DNA from: Spirochaetaceae bacterium
GTDB taxonomy: Bacteria > Spirochaetota > Spirochaetia > Treponematales > Breznakiellaceae
NCBI GenBank assembly: GCA_031279015.1
Contig: JAITJI010000095.1
Coordinates: forward strand, 1-35,290
DNA length: 35,290 nt
Reading direction: 5' to 3'
The stretch's first letter is position 1; every line of letters begins with the position of its first letter. Positions 17,038-21,857 of the stretch are shown piece after piece. The notes under the pieces were generated by a model. The model was not told the DNA's origin, made no database searches, and worked only from the letters and a program-made list of their open reading frames with translations. Both the position numbers and the translations under genes were made by a program.

Positions 17038-17772
17038 TTAACGAAACCGGGGCCGCCTCTCCAGGGCCCGTTTCAAGGCCGCCATATCGGCTTCTCCGCC
17101 GGGACCGGCCGGGATAAGCTCCTCCGGGGAGACATCCAGTTCAAAGGGCCGGCGGGCGACATGCTCCGGATAATGGGCGTCCGAAGATGTGATGAGGGGA
17201 TACCCCAGGGTATCCACCGAAGGGGGCAGGCGGACACATTCAATGGCCGCCCAGGGACCATCCACCACAACCCCCAACTGACTGGTCATGGAAAAGGCGG
17301 ATCGATCCACGTGGGCGGGGATAACCATGCCCCCATATTCCGCCACCTTACCGCCGATGCCCTCAACACTGATGTCCAGGGCGCCGGGGAGGAAATACTC
17401 AAGCTCCCCCTCGATGTTATCCTCTTCATCCACATACACCTGATCGCCGGTCTTTTCCGGATCGTTAGGAAGAGGAGTGATGATGCTATAGGCGTATTCC
17501 CCAAAGGACAGGGCGGCTTCCAGGCCGGTAAAGATACAGAGGACGTGAATCTCCTCCTGGGTAGTGGCCTCCAGGCCGAAGAGGGGGATAATGCCATACC
17601 GGGAACAGACCTTGGCAAAGGCGGGACAGTTGAGGCCGGAGTTATGATCCGTCAGCGCCAGAACCCGGACGCCTCTGGCGGCGGCCAGTTCCGCCAAAGT
17701 CCGGGGGGACAAGTCCAGGGAACCACAGGGGGAAAGGCAGGAATGGTTATGAAAATCCGCAAGAAGACTCAC
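17038..17772 (-). CDS. PHP-domain metal-dependent phosphoesterase
   Basis: The protein has 244 residues from the GTG at 17772, chosen because GGGAGT lies about 6 nt upstream and translation then begins MSLLADFHNH. A longer frame to 17871 would overlap the neighbour by 80 bp and add residues foreign to the family. Metal-binding motifs are HNH (residues 8-10), LTDHNSG (about 40-46), AHVDR and SSDAHYPEHV near the end. PHP proteins hydrolyse phosphate esters, nucleotides or phosphohistidinol. Here the gene follows a DRTGG gene and a CBS/ATPase regulator, an association seen in anaerobes, often beside hydrogenase genes. The substrate is unknown. Confidence 0.85.
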   Translation of the reverse strand: MSLLADFHNHSCLSPCGSLDLSPRTLAELAAARGVRVLALTDHNSGLNCPAFAKVCSRYGIIPLFGLEATTQEEIHVLCIFTGLEAALSFGEYAYSIITPLPNDPEKTGDQVYVDEEDNIEGELEYFLPGALDISVEGIGGKVAEYGGMVIPAHVDRSAFSMTSQLGVVVDGPWAAIECVRLPPSVDTLGYPLITSSDAHYPEHVARRPFELDVSPEELIPAGPGGEADMAALKRALERRPRFR

Positions 17773-17791
17773 CGGAAACTCCCGGCAGCGG

Positions 17792-18133
17792 TCATAATCC
17801 GTCCTTTTGCAGCTCCGCGTAGAGACGGCCCGAAACAACAAACTGATTTTCCCTGGTTCTGACAATGGCAATCCCCTCGTCCCGGGCGGCCTCGATCATG
17901 TCCTCCGGAATGGGCCGGGTATTGCAGACCACGATGACGGTGATATTCACCAGAGTGGCCACCGCCACGGTGTTCTTGTGGGCCTGGATGGTGATAAGAG
18001 CCCCCCCGTCCCTGGCATTGGCCATCACGTCCGAGAGGAGGTCCGATGTATAGGCCCCGGCGAGTTCCGTATCCTCAAATTCGTCCTGAATCAGCTCAGC
18101 GTCCAATATGACCGCAGCTTCCCGGATGGTCAT
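17792..18133 (-). CDS. DRTGG-domain protein
   Basis: The protein has 113 residues. It resembles the free-standing DRTGG domain also found in phosphotransacetylases and near CBS domains, with LAGAYTSDLLSDVMANARDGGALITIQAH at about 24-52 and RPIPEDMIEAARDEGIAIVRT towards the end. It has no signal or membrane segment, so it is cytoplasmic, and is probably a small ligand-binding regulator. The ATG overlaps the stop of the CBS/ATPase gene (ATGA), so production of the two is linked. The PHP gene follows after 19 bp. The family is recognised; its ligand is not known. Confidence 0.8.
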   Translation of the reverse strand: MTIREAAVILDAELIQDEFEDTELAGAYTSDLLSDVMANARDGGALITIQAHKNTVAVATLVNITVIVVCNTRPIPEDMIEAARDEGIAIVRTRENQFVVSGRLYAELQKDGL

Positions 18134-19104
18134 TGGAGGCCTTCTTCCTTTGGCGAACTGATAAAAACTATCGAACGAACTACGGTGCCCTTCCCCTCCT
18201 CGGATTCGATCTGGAATTCATCGGAGACCCGCCTGGTATTTGCCAACCCCATCCCTGCGCCGAAGCCCAGGGAACGGATCCATTCGTTGGCGGTGGACCA
18301 GCCCTCCTGGAGGGCCAGATTCACATCCTTAATCCCCGGTCCGGTATCGGAGGCTATCACAACCACCCTGTCAGGCTGGATGGAACAGCTGATCGTACCC
18401 CCCTGGGAGTGGACCACCTGATTAATCTCCAGTTCATAACTGGCAATGGCCACCCGCCGGATGATCTGCGGATCGATGTTCCGCTGCTTCAGGGCCTTTT
18501 TGATCTCCGTGGAAGCCCGGCCCGCCAGTTCAAAATCATAGCGGACGGTGGTAAATGCCATTTCAGAAAAACTACTTACCAGCCCGGCTCCGCCCTGATG
18601 TATCTTTTCCAAACGAAGTACCTCCCGGTTCATTTCCACCAGCAGCGTCTTGATCACATCGGAGGACGTGAGGATTCCTACCAGTTCCTTGTTCTTATTG
18701 AGCACCGGAAACCGGCCAAACCGGTATTTGTTCAGATAGGAAATGGCAAAGGAGAGGGGCATGTCATCCTCCAGGACGATCACATTCCTGGTCATCCGTT
18801 CCTCTGCGGACTGATCGATGTAGCCCTTGTCCAGGGCGATAACGATATCATCAATAGAGATGATCCCCAAAAGCCGCTGCTCCTCCACAATGGGGATGCC
18901 GGTGATATAATTCTCCCGCATCAGGGCCTGGATACGCCGCATGGAATCGTGCCGTGACCCGGTGATCACCGCGGTGGCCATCACATCCTTTATCTTCATC
19001 TGATAGATTAGTTCCAATACCACCGAGGGGGAATCCACCGTGCTGATGGGAATACCCGAACCGTCTACGGGCAATCCTTCTGTGCTCTGCTGCTGGCAGT
19101 TCAT
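18130..19104 (-). CDS. CBS-pair protein fused to an RsbW/RsbT-like ATPase domain
   Basis: The protein has 324 residues. Two CBS domains span about 36-155 (IKDVMATAVITGS; RMTRNVIVLEDD; VGILTSSDVIKTL). A GHKL ATPase domain spans about 185-316, with an N-box at ELEINQVVHSQGG, a G1 box at DTGPGI and a G2 box at GFGAGMGLAN. There is no phosphoacceptor His domain, so it resembles anti-sigma-factor serine kinases rather than sensor kinases. CBS pairs usually sense adenosyl nucleotides. The fusion suggests a nucleotide- or energy-sensing switch acting on a partner protein, perhaps the DRTGG protein encoded next. It overlaps both neighbours by ATGA, with the HAD gene upstream. Confidence 0.85.
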   Translation of the reverse strand: MNCQQQSTEGLPVDGSGIPISTVDSPSVVLELIYQMKIKDVMATAVITGSRHDSMRRIQALMRENYITGIPIVEEQRLLGIISIDDIVIALDKGYIDQSAEERMTRNVIVLEDDMPLSFAISYLNKYRFGRFPVLNKNKELVGILTSSDVIKTLLVEMNREVLRLEKIHQGGAGLVSSFSEMAFTTVRYDFELAGRASTEIKKALKQRNIDPQIIRRVAIASYELEINQVVHSQGGTISCSIQPDRVVVIASDTGPGIKDVNLALQEGWSTANEWIRSLGFGAGMGLANTRRVSDEFQIESEEGKGTVVRSIVFISSPKEEGLQ

Positions 19105-19952
19105 GATCCCGCTTCCTGTACCGGAAAGGGGATCTGCTCTTTTCCCAAAAGGTATCGTTCGATTAAATCGGCAATTCCGTCATCGTCGTTGGATTTATCG
19201 GTGACCATGGCGGCTATACTCTTGATCCGGTCATCCCCATTCGCCATGGCCACCCCGACGCCGGCCCAGCGGAGCATCGCCTCATCGTTCATCGAATCCC
19301 CAATGGCCAAAACCGCTTCCCGGTCTATCCCCAGTTGTTCCGCCACCCTGGCCAGGGCGGTCCCCTTGTCGGTATTGGGAGGCAGGAGTTCCAGGAAGTA
19401 GGGCTTGCTGGTAAAGATGGTCAGGTCATCCCCCAGGTAGTTCCGCAGGAGTTTTTCCAGGGGGGAGAGGATCAAGGGGTCCCCGGGGATGAGAAGCTTA
19501 TAGCAGCCCGCCGCCACCATGGCCCGGAAATTTTCCACCACCACCTGGCGGAGCCCCGTGAGCCTCTGATCATAATCGGCAAATTCGTTGGGACGGGAGA
19601 TGTACATCACATCATCCTCGTATATCTGAACGGAAAACCCTTCGGCCTCCGCCAGATCGTAGGCGATCAGGGCTGTTTCCCGGGGTATCCACGCATCGTA
19701 GATGATGTTCCCTGACTGGCTTTCCTGGATGATGGTCCCGTTGTTACAGATGAGATACCCTGGCCGCCTATGCATCCCCAAAAGCCGGGAAAACCGCTCC
19801 ATCGCCGAGGGGATCCTGCCGGAAGCGAGGACCACCGTAATACCAGCGTTTTCTGCCCGTTTAATAGCGTTCCTGGTGCGAAAGGATATGGTCAGATCCG
19901 AACGCAGGAGGGTATCATCCAGATCAAGGGCAAGCAAACGTATAGCCATCAT
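19101..19952 (-). CDS. Cof-type HAD phosphatase
   Basis: The protein has about 283 residues from the ATG pair at 19952/19949, giving MMAIRLLALDLDDTLL. A longer frame exists but adds an unlikely leader. Motif I is DLDDT (residues 10-14), followed by a Cof-type cap, the Lys in NTDKGTALARVAEQLGI, and motif IV GDSMNDEAMLRWAGVGVAMANG. Proteins of this group dephosphorylate sugar phosphates, FMN or phosphorylated vitamins; the substrate is not evident. It is the first gene of a minus-strand unit with the CBS/ATPase and DRTGG genes, coupled by 4-base overlaps. parA diverges from it across about 70 bp. Confidence 0.88.
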   Translation of the reverse strand: MMAIRLLALDLDDTLLRSDLTISFRTRNAIKRAENAGITVVLASGRIPSAMERFSRLLGMHRRPGYLICNNGTIIQESQSGNIIYDAWIPRETALIAYDLAEAEGFSVQIYEDDVMYISRPNEFADYDQRLTGLRQVVVENFRAMVAAGCYKLLIPGDPLILSPLEKLLRNYLGDDLTIFTSKPYFLELLPPNTDKGTALARVAEQLGIDREAVLAIGDSMNDEAMLRWAGVGVAMANGDDRIKSIAAMVTDKSNDDDGIADLIERYLLGKEQIPFPVQEAGS

Positions 19953-20023
19953 GCATACAGAATAACCCCTTGACCCCCATTTTATCAATAGTAAAAATAA
20001 AACTTATCGTGTATACTGGTGGC

Positions 20024-20782
20024 ATGGGCATGGTGTATGTTTTTGTAAATCAAAAGGGAGGGGTGGGTAAAACTACATCCGCCATCAACCTGGGGGCCTT
20101 TCTTGCCGAAGCGGGCAAGGCGGTACTCCTGGTGGATTTTGATTCCCAGGCGAACCTCACCGGAGGCATCGGGATACGCGCTCCCAAGCCCGGGATATAC
20201 GAGCTCATCTCCGGTTCAGCCTCTGCGGAGGAAGCCGTCAGGAAAACTACCATTACCGGCCTTTCGGTCATCCCCTCCTGCCTCGATCTTTCCGGCGCCT
20301 CGGTGGAGTTGATCGGGCAGAAGGAACGGGATTTTTTTCTGAAAAGGGCCCTGGCCCCGCTGCGGGACCACTACGATTACATTCTGATCGACTGTCCCCC
20401 ATCCCTGGGGATCCTCACCCTGAACGGCCTGGCCGCTGCCGATGCAACCCTTATCCCCATGCAGTGCGAATATTTTGCCCTGGAGGGACTGTCCCTCCTG
20501 TTCAGGACCATCCGGCGTATTCAAAAAAACCTCAATCCCCGGCTGGTGGTAGGGGGTATTTTTTTTACAATGTACGATCCCCGGACGCGGCTTGCCCAGC
20601 AGGTGGTTAAACAGGTGACTGCCTACTTTCAGGGTAAGGTTTTTTCCACTATCGTGCCGCGGAATGTACGGCTCTCCGAGGCTCCTTCTCACGGCCTGGC
20701 GATCTCCCAATACGATCCCCAATGCTCAGGCGCCCGGGCCTACCGGAGTCTCGCCGGGGAGGTAATGCGTCATGGCGTCTAA
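20024..20782 (+). CDS. parA: ParA / Soj chromosome-partition ATPase
   Basis: The protein has about 252 residues starting MGMVYVFVNQKGGVGKTTSA. The deviant Walker A KGGVGKTT and Walker B region YILIDCPPSLGILTLNG are clear, as is LVDFDSQANLT. ParA binds DNA non-specifically and, with ParB, segregates the origin region. An in-frame extension upstream to 19970 would run through the promoter region and is rejected. The start lacks a good Shine-Dalgarno, and a TATACT element sits 7 bp before the ATG, so the mRNA could be nearly leaderless. The gene overlaps parB by 11 bp. No parS-like palindrome was noticed here. Confidence 0.92.
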   Translation: MGMVYVFVNQKGGVGKTTSAINLGAFLAEAGKAVLLVDFDSQANLTGGIGIRAPKPGIYELISGSASAEEAVRKTTITGLSVIPSCLDLSGASVELIGQKERDFFLKRALAPLRDHYDYILIDCPPSLGILTLNGLAAADATLIPMQCEYFALEGLSLLFRTIRRIQKNLNPRLVVGGIFFTMYDPRTRLAQQVVKQVTAYFQGKVFSTIVPRNVRLSEAPSHGLAISQYDPQCSGARAYRSLAGEVMRHGV

Positions 20783-21857
20783 ATTCGGCCTGGGCAAAGG
20801 GCTTGACGCCCTGTTTCCCCTGGAGGATCCCTCCGGAACGGAACCCAAGCTCCGGACCGATACCGGCGATTCGGGGTTGGAGGGGGCGGGCGGCAGGGAA
20901 ACTGTTGCCGGGGGACAGACGGACCGGGGGGAGCTCCTCATCCCCCTGGAGCTGTTCGACGCAAACCCGGTTCAACCCCGTAAAACCTTTGATGAGGCGG
21001 CCCTGCAGGAACTGGCGGACTCTATCCGGGAACATGGTATCATCCAGCCCATTATCGTCGAAAAAAACGACGGTAACCGTTACACCATTGTTGCGGGGGA
21101 GCGGCGGTTCCGGGCCGCCAAACTGGCGGGCCTTACGGCGGTTCCGGTCCTGCTCCGGGAATATTCCGGCGGAAAGCGGATGGAAATCTCTCTGATTGAA
21201 AACATTCAGCGGGCCGACCTTAACCCCGTGGAGGAGGCCTCCGCCTACCGCCATCTTATGGAAGTAACCGGCCTCTCCCAGGACGAGGTAGCCGTCCGGG
21301 TTGGCAAAAACCGGAGTACCGTGACCAATGCCCTGCGGCTTCTCCGCCTGCCCATCCCCATACTGGGCAGCCTGGAATCCGGGGCCGTTTCCCCCGGTCA
21401 TGCCCGGGCCCTCCTTTCGGTACGGAAGGAGGATGATCAGGAAAGGCTCTACCAGGAGATCCTTGCCGAAGGGATCTCCGTCCGTGAGGCGGAAAAACGG
21501 GCCGCCATCCTGAACGGCGGAGCGGATCCGGCGGGGGCTTCCCCGGGCGTAGACACTGCCGGCGTAGACACTGCCGGCAACAATGCTACCGGCGGCAACA
21601 ATGCCGGCGGCATTTCTGCCGGCGCCAAAAACACCCCGGAGGGTAAGACCTCCCGGGCGGCCCCGCCGGAATCCCGGAACCGGGACCCCCATCTGACCGT
21701 CCTGGAACAGGAATTTATTGAGCTTCTGGGAACAAAGGTCGTTATTGCGGGGACTCCCGAGGGGGGAACCATCCGGATCGATTATTACTCCCTGGAGGAT
21801 CTCAACCGCCTTTACGAACTCCTGGGAAGCGGTAACAGCGGCGATCATAAGGGATAA
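20772..21857 (+). CDS. parB: ParB / Spo0J partition protein
   Basis: The protein has 361 residues. An N-terminal ParA-interacting stretch (KFGLGKGLDALF) is followed by the CTP-binding ParB domain, about 55-150, with GERRFRA at 109-115 and ENIQRADLNPVEEA. The helix-turn-helix lies at about 168-192 (LSQDEVAVRVGKNRSTVTNALRLL). Residues about 250-305 are an Ala/Gly/Asn-rich linker made of five-residue repeats, then a dimerisation domain ends the protein. ParB spreads on DNA from parS and stimulates ParA. It overlaps parA by 11 bp and is followed by a hairpin terminator. Confidence 0.92.
   Translation: MASKFGLGKGLDALFPLEDPSGTEPKLRTDTGDSGLEGAGGRETVAGGQTDRGELLIPLELFDANPVQPRKTFDEAALQELADSIREHGIIQPIIVEKNDGNRYTIVAGERRFRAAKLAGLTAVPVLLREYSGGKRMEISLIENIQRADLNPVEEASAYRHLMEVTGLSQDEVAVRVGKNRSTVTNALRLLRLPIPILGSLESGAVSPGHARALLSVRKEDDQERLYQEILAEGISVREAEKRAAILNGGADPAGASPGVDTAGVDTAGNNATGGNNAGGISAGAKNTPEGKTSRAAPPESRNRDPHLTVLEQEFIELLGTKVVIAGTPEGGTIRIDYYSLEDLNRLYELLGSGNSGDHKG
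21549..21623 (+). repeat. Five degenerate 15-bp tandem repeats in parB
   Basis: Five consecutive 15-bp units encode VDTAG, VDTAG, NNATG, GNNAG and GISAG. The first two are identical and all end in CCGGC. They lie in the linker between the DNA-binding part and the dimerisation domain, so changes in copy number would alter linker length without a frameshift. Confidence 0.85.

Follow-up and report, generated by a model that had tools for sequence, protein, structure and literature searches.

A detached CBS-ATPase/DRTGG/PHP gene set in a Breznakiellaceae spirochaete, a probable accessory of NuoE/NuoF enzymes

In our view, little is understood about how cells set the rate of electron-bifurcating enzymes and the direction in which they run. 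According to the accessible text of PMC9304861, the BfuABC family of such enzymes has NuoF/NuoE cores with variable third parts. In Halanaerobium hydrogeniformans the genes Halsa_1862-1871 encode an iron hydrogenase, NADH dehydrogenase, a ferredoxin-like protein, a histidine kinase, NuoE, a PHP protein and an anti-sigma/serine-threonine kinase (PMC4237134, accessible part). A set of CBS-ATPase, DRTGG and PHP genes lies in a 35,290-nucleotide stretch, called the window here, from a Spirochaetaceae bacterium of the Breznakiellaceae (assembly GCA_031279015.1, contig JAITJI010000095.1). An earlier note on the window had proposed a redox or energy sensor whose target is encoded elsewhere. The comparison reported here suggests that the set is an accessory of HydABC-like NuoE/Fd/NuoF enzymes, detached in the window from its enzyme and exerting adenylate-gated control in trans; the probability of this reading is about 0.6. 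The set and the HAD gene joined to it are as follows.

19952-19101, minus strand: HAD, a Cof-type HAD-IIB phosphatase (TIGR00099, 178.9 bits, cut-off 137)
19104-18130, minus strand: CBS-ATPase, a CBS pair fused to an RsbW/SpoIIAB-like GHKL ATPase (Pfam)
18133-17792, minus strand: DRTGG2, a DRTGG-fold protein (predicted fold and conserved position)
17772-17038, minus strand: PHP, a PHP-domain phosphoesterase (PF02811, 33.8 bits, cut-off 26.4)

Recurrence of the set and its link to NuoE/NuoF enzymes

The recurrent gene order across phyla is DRTGG1, CBS-ATPase, DRTGG2, PHP, often with HATP2, together with NuoE, Fd, NuoF and an A subunit. The window has the core of this order, CBS-ATPase, DRTGG2 and PHP. 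From 126 sources, 117 loci were counted in three groups: near kin, other spirochaetes, and deeper or other phyla. The nine left out are L069 (same contig as L162), L078, L079 and L080 (ATPase without CBS), and L004, L083, L084, L085 and L086 (not set loci). One collection, of 80 named loci, holds the best 80 of at least 578 confirmed matches and favours spirochaetes. The other is a phylum sample of 198 genomes with about six candidates scored per genome, which makes absences soft; CBS-ATPase matched in 49 of these genomes at 1e-15 and was nearly full length in 38.

At decidable loci, DRTGG2 lies within 500 bases downstream in 14/15 near-kin, 36/47 other spirochaete and 38/49 deeper loci, counts that are low by a few owing to overlapping-frame artefacts (L047, L067 and L125 do have matches). 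PHP is present in 12/14, 41/46 and 35/50, respectively. DRTGG1 within 1.5 kb upstream is common but not universal (68/110; 5/15, 20/43 and 43/52 by group) and is absent at the window. Some loci depart from the usual arrangement. In L056, L057 and L059, all of one genus, about 2.1 kb is inserted between CBS-ATPase and DRTGG2. L091, in genome G202, has CBS-ATPase and HAD with no DRTGG2 directly downstream, and contig C8 of this genome carries a DRTGG-like match. In L078 (6691-8779) and L080 an RsbW-like ATPase without CBS is followed by an iron-sulfur protein of 416-431 amino acids. The L078 protein has a Fe_hyd_lg_C match, and an iron-sulfur input possibly replaces CBS in this variant.

NuoE/NuoF genes lie within 8 kb of the set at 48 of the 80 loci that could be decided (near kin 2/8, other spirochaetes 11/29, deeper or other phyla 35/43) and apart from it at 32. 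Over these 80 rows the CBS-ATPase tree, a quick tree in which 37 of 114 inner branches have support below 80, requires at least 14 changes between linked and separate states, and the separation at the window is one of them. The earlier note had placed such sets typically near NuoE and [FeFe]-hydrogenase genes. This is sound for NuoE/NuoF; the hydrogenase is only one version of the partner. The suggestion that missing redox genes make the window copy special is not supported by the counts.

The type of partner was assessed from the A subunit, which could be scored at 33 loci. H-cluster motifs are present in 14 and absent in 19, and an [FeFe] hydrogenase as universal partner was therefore rejected. 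The third motif occurs in 18 of 53 HydA-labelled frames: those of the window genome and its kin, other spirochaetes, L123 (Kiritimatiellae), L124 (unclassified), and L154 and L161 (Chloroflexi-type). The window belongs to a clade of 67 rows (SH-aLRT 99) in which all 12 scorable linked rows carry H-cluster motifs. Outside it only L154 and L161 do so among 21 loci, and the remaining 19 are new here as set loci without [FeFe]-hydrogenase motifs. Partner type, with or without H-cluster motifs, requires only two changes on the CBS-ATPase tree over the 33 rows.

Ten A-type proteins (nine of the 19 without motifs, and the short frame of L145) were searched with Pfam at E up to 1e-6, and none matched Fe_hyd_lg_C. 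They showed molybdopterin domains (L130, L132, L136, L145, L159, L166), flavin or pyridine-nucleotide domains (L139, L143, also L159) or iron-sulfur domains only (L134, L140). The other ten of the 19 were classed from motif absence alone. Across these A subunits the set follows the NuoE/NuoF core, and the window's branch has the [FeFe] version, with L146 as a likely exception. The partner that stays the same is this NADH-binding core, of which the [FeFe] hydrogenase is one version.

Three further observations concern partner enzymes. A nickel-hydrogenase gene lies near L065. In L162 (2912-9032) Rnf complex genes diverge from the set, with NuoE/NuoF beyond them and a truncated molybdopterin-type protein. 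In both L145 (3270-5726) and L146 (8294-10609) the frame of the A-type subunit is broken by one TGA, as in selenocysteine formate dehydrogenases.

The association extends to whole genomes. A HydB-like NuoF (E up to 1e-120) is found in 37/38 phylum-sample genomes with a full-length CBS-ATPase versus 71/160 without (Fisher p 1.6e-10), and a strong HydA (E up to 1e-80) in 29/38 versus 63/160 (p 4.9e-5), tests that ignore relatedness among the 198 genomes. A strong HydA is present in 22 of the 23 genomes whose CBS-ATPase is at least 45% identical to that of the window. From the 80 named loci 24 carriers were picked, and every one of them has a HydA match at 2e-83 or better.

That the set goes with the NuoE/NuoF core and not with any single catalytic subunit would also suit an aid to assembly, in which the multi-cluster enzyme is built or repaired with help from the two GHKL ATPases, the DRTGG proteins and PHP. 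HATP2 is often placed among the NuoE, Fd and NuoF genes. Such a role is unlikely, however. CBS pairs and RsbW-like ATPases are mostly regulatory, and the 71 genomes with a NuoF homologue and no full-length CBS-ATPase argue against a need for the set in building the enzyme.

Several findings weigh against the set as an accessory of these enzymes. Those same 71 genomes show that such enzymes can do without the set. Nine of the 38 carriers lack a strong HydA (weak in G042, G068, G092, G097, G112, G127, G131 and G139, none in G102), and in G102 no NuoF match reaches the threshold either. Two of the 24 chosen carriers have only a distant HydA match (G199, 42%; G207, 39% and partial). Within the window's clade five linked rows could not be scored, and in one of these, L146, the A subunit is probably of another kind, with no H-cluster motif and a frame that ends at TGA. 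PHP could act on something unrelated. No Rex-like site was found near the set genes or on contig C40, which carries the hydrogenase operon described below; the one match, with three mismatches, lies elsewhere in the window. Co-regulation by Rex was rejected, as its matches are at chance level.

The window cluster and the hydrogenase elsewhere in the genome

As the earlier note had described, HAD is joined to CBS-ATPase and CBS-ATPase to DRTGG2 by ATGA overlaps, which the sequence itself shows at 19101-19104 and 18130-18133. PHP probably starts with GTG at 17772; the mechanical open reading frame (ORF) of 277 amino acids opens at 17871. The window ORFs are not chance, because the identical order is found in two of the three other same-family genomes of the phylum sample and at many other loci. 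The third has the cluster order without HAD. HAD lies directly upstream in 13/16 near-kin, 2/43 other spirochaete and 0/50 deeper loci (2/93 outside near kin). It is a local addition to the set shared with near relatives, and the HAD link is thus conserved where its loss would have counted against the earlier proposal. What the window holds is an ordinary copy of the recurrent set, detached and HAD-coupled. Its neighbours are:

16964-15843, minus strand: NlpC/P60 (PF00877, 94.1 bits), a neighbour and not a set member
15737-10923, minus strand: GltB, glutamate synthase
19970-21857: ParA/ParB, diverging upstream of the set

NlpC/P60 follows the set in place of redox genes, as had been seen before, and there is no NuoE or NuoF anywhere in the window, which flanks the set by 17 and 15 kb. 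The diverging ParA/ParB genes are retained in many near-kin loci, with 0.5 to 3.9 kb intervening between them and the set in L041, L042, L094 and L097.

A search of the window genome (G000, 89.93% complete) found two Fe_hyd_lg_C proteins, on contigs C40 and C20. The C40 protein is encoded in an operon with the order NuoE-HATPase(HATP2)-Fd-NuoF-HydA. NuoE, NuoF and a HydA with an H-cluster domain make this a NuoE/NuoF-linked [FeFe] hydrogenase, and the HydF maturase is also encoded in the genome. The same search, which the earlier note had proposed, found no second CBS-ATPase in this roughly 90% complete genome, and no complete set beside a hydrogenase that would make the window copy redundant. 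The C40 operon most likely encodes the enzyme of the set. The expectation that the target is encoded elsewhere is borne out by this HydABC-type operon, and "without a hydrogenase" describes the locus and not the genome. A group A3 hydrogenase is described for three termite-gut Breznakiellaceae species in the accessible text of PMC13067680. The C20 protein (L005, 7654-9747) has a C-terminal half resembling the signalling part of chemoreceptors and is a possible H2 sensor.

Near kin show both states, the set and hydrogenase being linked in two genomes and far apart in Breznakiella homolactica. In L041, a closed same-family genome, HAD stands between DRTGG1 and CBS-ATPase, and 3.7 kb separate the set from NuoE. 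In L095 an NlpC gene follows the order DRTGG1-HAD-CBS-DRTGG2-PHP, and the hydrogenase operon lies 2.8 kb further along. PHP, NlpC and NuoE come in this order in L125 too. A synthetase (AMP-binding) and a small lipoprotein-like gene stand between the set and NuoE in both L041 and L095. Relatives of these two genes stand beside NuoE on C40, first the lipoprotein gene and then the AMP-binding synthetase. The C40 synthetase is 74% identical to those of L041 and L095, and the C40 lipoprotein 36% identical to that of L095. Because C40 keeps the two genes found between set and hydrogenase in linked relatives, the absence of the hydrogenase at the window reflects a rearrangement, with NlpC on one side of the break and the synthetase gene on the other. 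At only 35% identity, the NlpC proteins of the window and L095 are likely but not proven orthologues. In the closed chromosome of Breznakiella homolactica the set lies near 2.39 Mb and HydA at 4.356 Mb, about 2 Mb apart, and NlpC and GltB come after the set as they do in the window. Thus the separation is not an assembly artefact.

A true DRTGG1 was not found in the window genome at its 90% completeness. A DRTGG1-like gene on contig C130 (L083, 16582-16944), which sits after genes resembling a methionine ABC transporter, was considered as a displaced DRTGG1 and rejected. It is a separate paralogue, with copies at 75-87% identity in 14 of the 15 other near-kin genomes searched (not in G204), and G194, G203, G205 and G206 own it besides the cluster copy. 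The missing DRTGG1, for which this paralogue is no substitute, is what a decaying leftover might show. That the detached window copy is such a remnant is very improbable: the frames are all intact, catalytic residues are conserved, the ATGA couplings are retained, the set is kept at the 32 decidable loci where it stands apart, and every one of the 24 carriers searched has a HydA match.

Folds, conserved sites and a possible mode of action

Pfam scores for the HAD and CBS-ATPase proteins are all above cut-off (CBS 83.5 bits, HATPase_c 36.2, HATPase_c_2 31.3, Hydrolase_3 208.8). The predicted model of CBS-ATPase has a pLDDT of 85.8 and a pTM of 0.50, the latter leaving the arrangement of the two halves uncertain. 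For the CBS half the matches are CBS pairs with AMP, ADP, ATP or Ap4A, AcuB among them. This half retains S83..D86 and T146..D149, positions of the S/T-x-x-D pattern that we take to be an adenylate-binding CBS motif. The C-terminal half structurally matches SpoIIAB, with E224 aligned to SpoIIAB residue 46, and E224, E226, N228 and the DxGPGI and GFGAGMG motifs of the ATP site are invariant in 23 sequences. The fold together with the presumed N, G1 and G2 boxes and the presumably catalytic Glu places the protein among GHKL ATPases.

The predicted model of DRTGG2 (pLDDT 96.2) has as its top fold match 2ioj, a Pfam DRTGG structure (E 8.4e-06, TM 0.82), with 3l31/3l2b, the CBS-DRTGG region of a pyrophosphatase, among the next. 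D31, L33-V36, Q50, H52 and N54 are invariant in 16 sequences. The protein is under the cut-off of Pfam DRTGG (PF07085; 17.6 versus 25.2 bits), and the name is given from predicted fold and conserved position, not from Pfam; DRTGG1 of L041 clears the same cut-off at 28.1 bits. Endonuclease Q is among the PHP structures to which the PHP profile matches. H41, H43, D75, H76, E101, H109, H187, D231 and H233 (277-amino-acid ORF numbering), presumably metal ligands, are invariant in 18/18 sequences.

Pfam found no iron-sulfur or other redox domain in HAD, CBS-ATPase, DRTGG2 or PHP. The CBS pair and the DRTGG fold fit adenylate sensing; the role proposed earlier, as a redox or energy sensor, is putative. 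A kinase or anti-sigma activity of RsbW/SpoIIAB type is putative for CBS-ATPase. The match to SpoIIAB, including E224, would suit partner-switching control of transcription, in which CBS-ATPase, an anti-sigma or anti-anti-sigma kinase, would control more genes than those of the enzyme. This is quite unlikely, since near-complete co-occurrence with a NuoF homologue is not expected of a general regulator, and no sigma factor or STAS match was found in the six neighbouring proteins scanned, to which the search was confined.

Under the preferred reading, an adenylate-gated accessory of the enzyme, the CBS pair with the DRTGG protein would read adenylate nucleotides and thereby gate the RsbW-like ATPase. 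The ATPase might phosphorylate or sequester a partner, adjusting how much of the NADH-linked enzyme is present or how active it is. PHP may take a phosphate off a small compound or undo the modification. Since set and enzyme frequently lie far apart, the set must act in trans. A broader version, for which we would give slightly less than even odds, is that CBS-ATPase, DRTGG, PHP and HATP2 form a general control module of HydBC- or Bfu-type bifurcating enzymes whatever their third substrate. Such a module would throttle the shared NADH-binding core by adenylate energy state, and its CBS-fused kinase would have co-diversified with the type of catalytic subunit.

Comparison with known systems

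The set's link to the whole family of NuoE/NuoF enzymes looks little noticed. It is not mentioned in the accessible parts of PMC6288185 and PMC9431212, and no general account of the set as a module was found among papers mostly open without subscription, so that an earlier description elsewhere is possible; the one description of such an operon found there is that of Halanaerobium in PMC4237134. More than the window copy, it is this wider link to the bifurcating core that is of interest. If true, one conserved module would control hydrogenase, molybdopterin-type and other versions of the enzyme, making energy-state control of bifurcation directly testable. For termite-gut spirochaetes it would be a probable regulator of H2 metabolism, overlooked by hydrogenase-centred annotation because the genes lie apart.

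The individual parts have known counterparts. The Clostridium perfringens pyrophosphatase (3l31, 3l2b) likewise combines CBS domains with a DRTGG domain, on one enzyme chain, whereas in the window they are on separate, translationally coupled chains and accompanied by an ATPase. The SpoIIAB/RsbW anti-sigma kinases share the GHKL fold and the aligned N-box Glu/Asn; the window ATPase differs in its fusion to a CBS pair, and none of the neighbouring proteins scanned matches a sigma factor or STAS.

For HfsABCD/HydS, the accessible parts of PMC5707799 and PMC11837493 describe regulatory genes that lie next to [FeFe] hydrogenases, with kinase or phosphatase partners proposed. That system has a PAS-domain hydrogenase sensor and a serine phosphatase, and CBS and DRTGG do not appear in those parts. 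The accessible text of PMC9304861 covers the BfuABC enzymes; the legend of its Figure 3 has uncoloured processing or regulatory genes, and CBS, PHP, kinase and anti-sigma do not occur in that text. The likeness lies in the enzymes adjoining the set, which have the same NuoF/NuoE core and variable third part. The Halanaerobium operon resembles the recurrent set in bringing PHP and anti-sigma/kinase genes together with hydrogenase and NuoE genes. In the accessible part of PMC4237134 iron-sulfur protein genes adjoin its anti-sigma/kinase gene and a CBS part goes unmentioned, whereas the window set has a fused CBS pair, an added HAD and its hydrogenase elsewhere.

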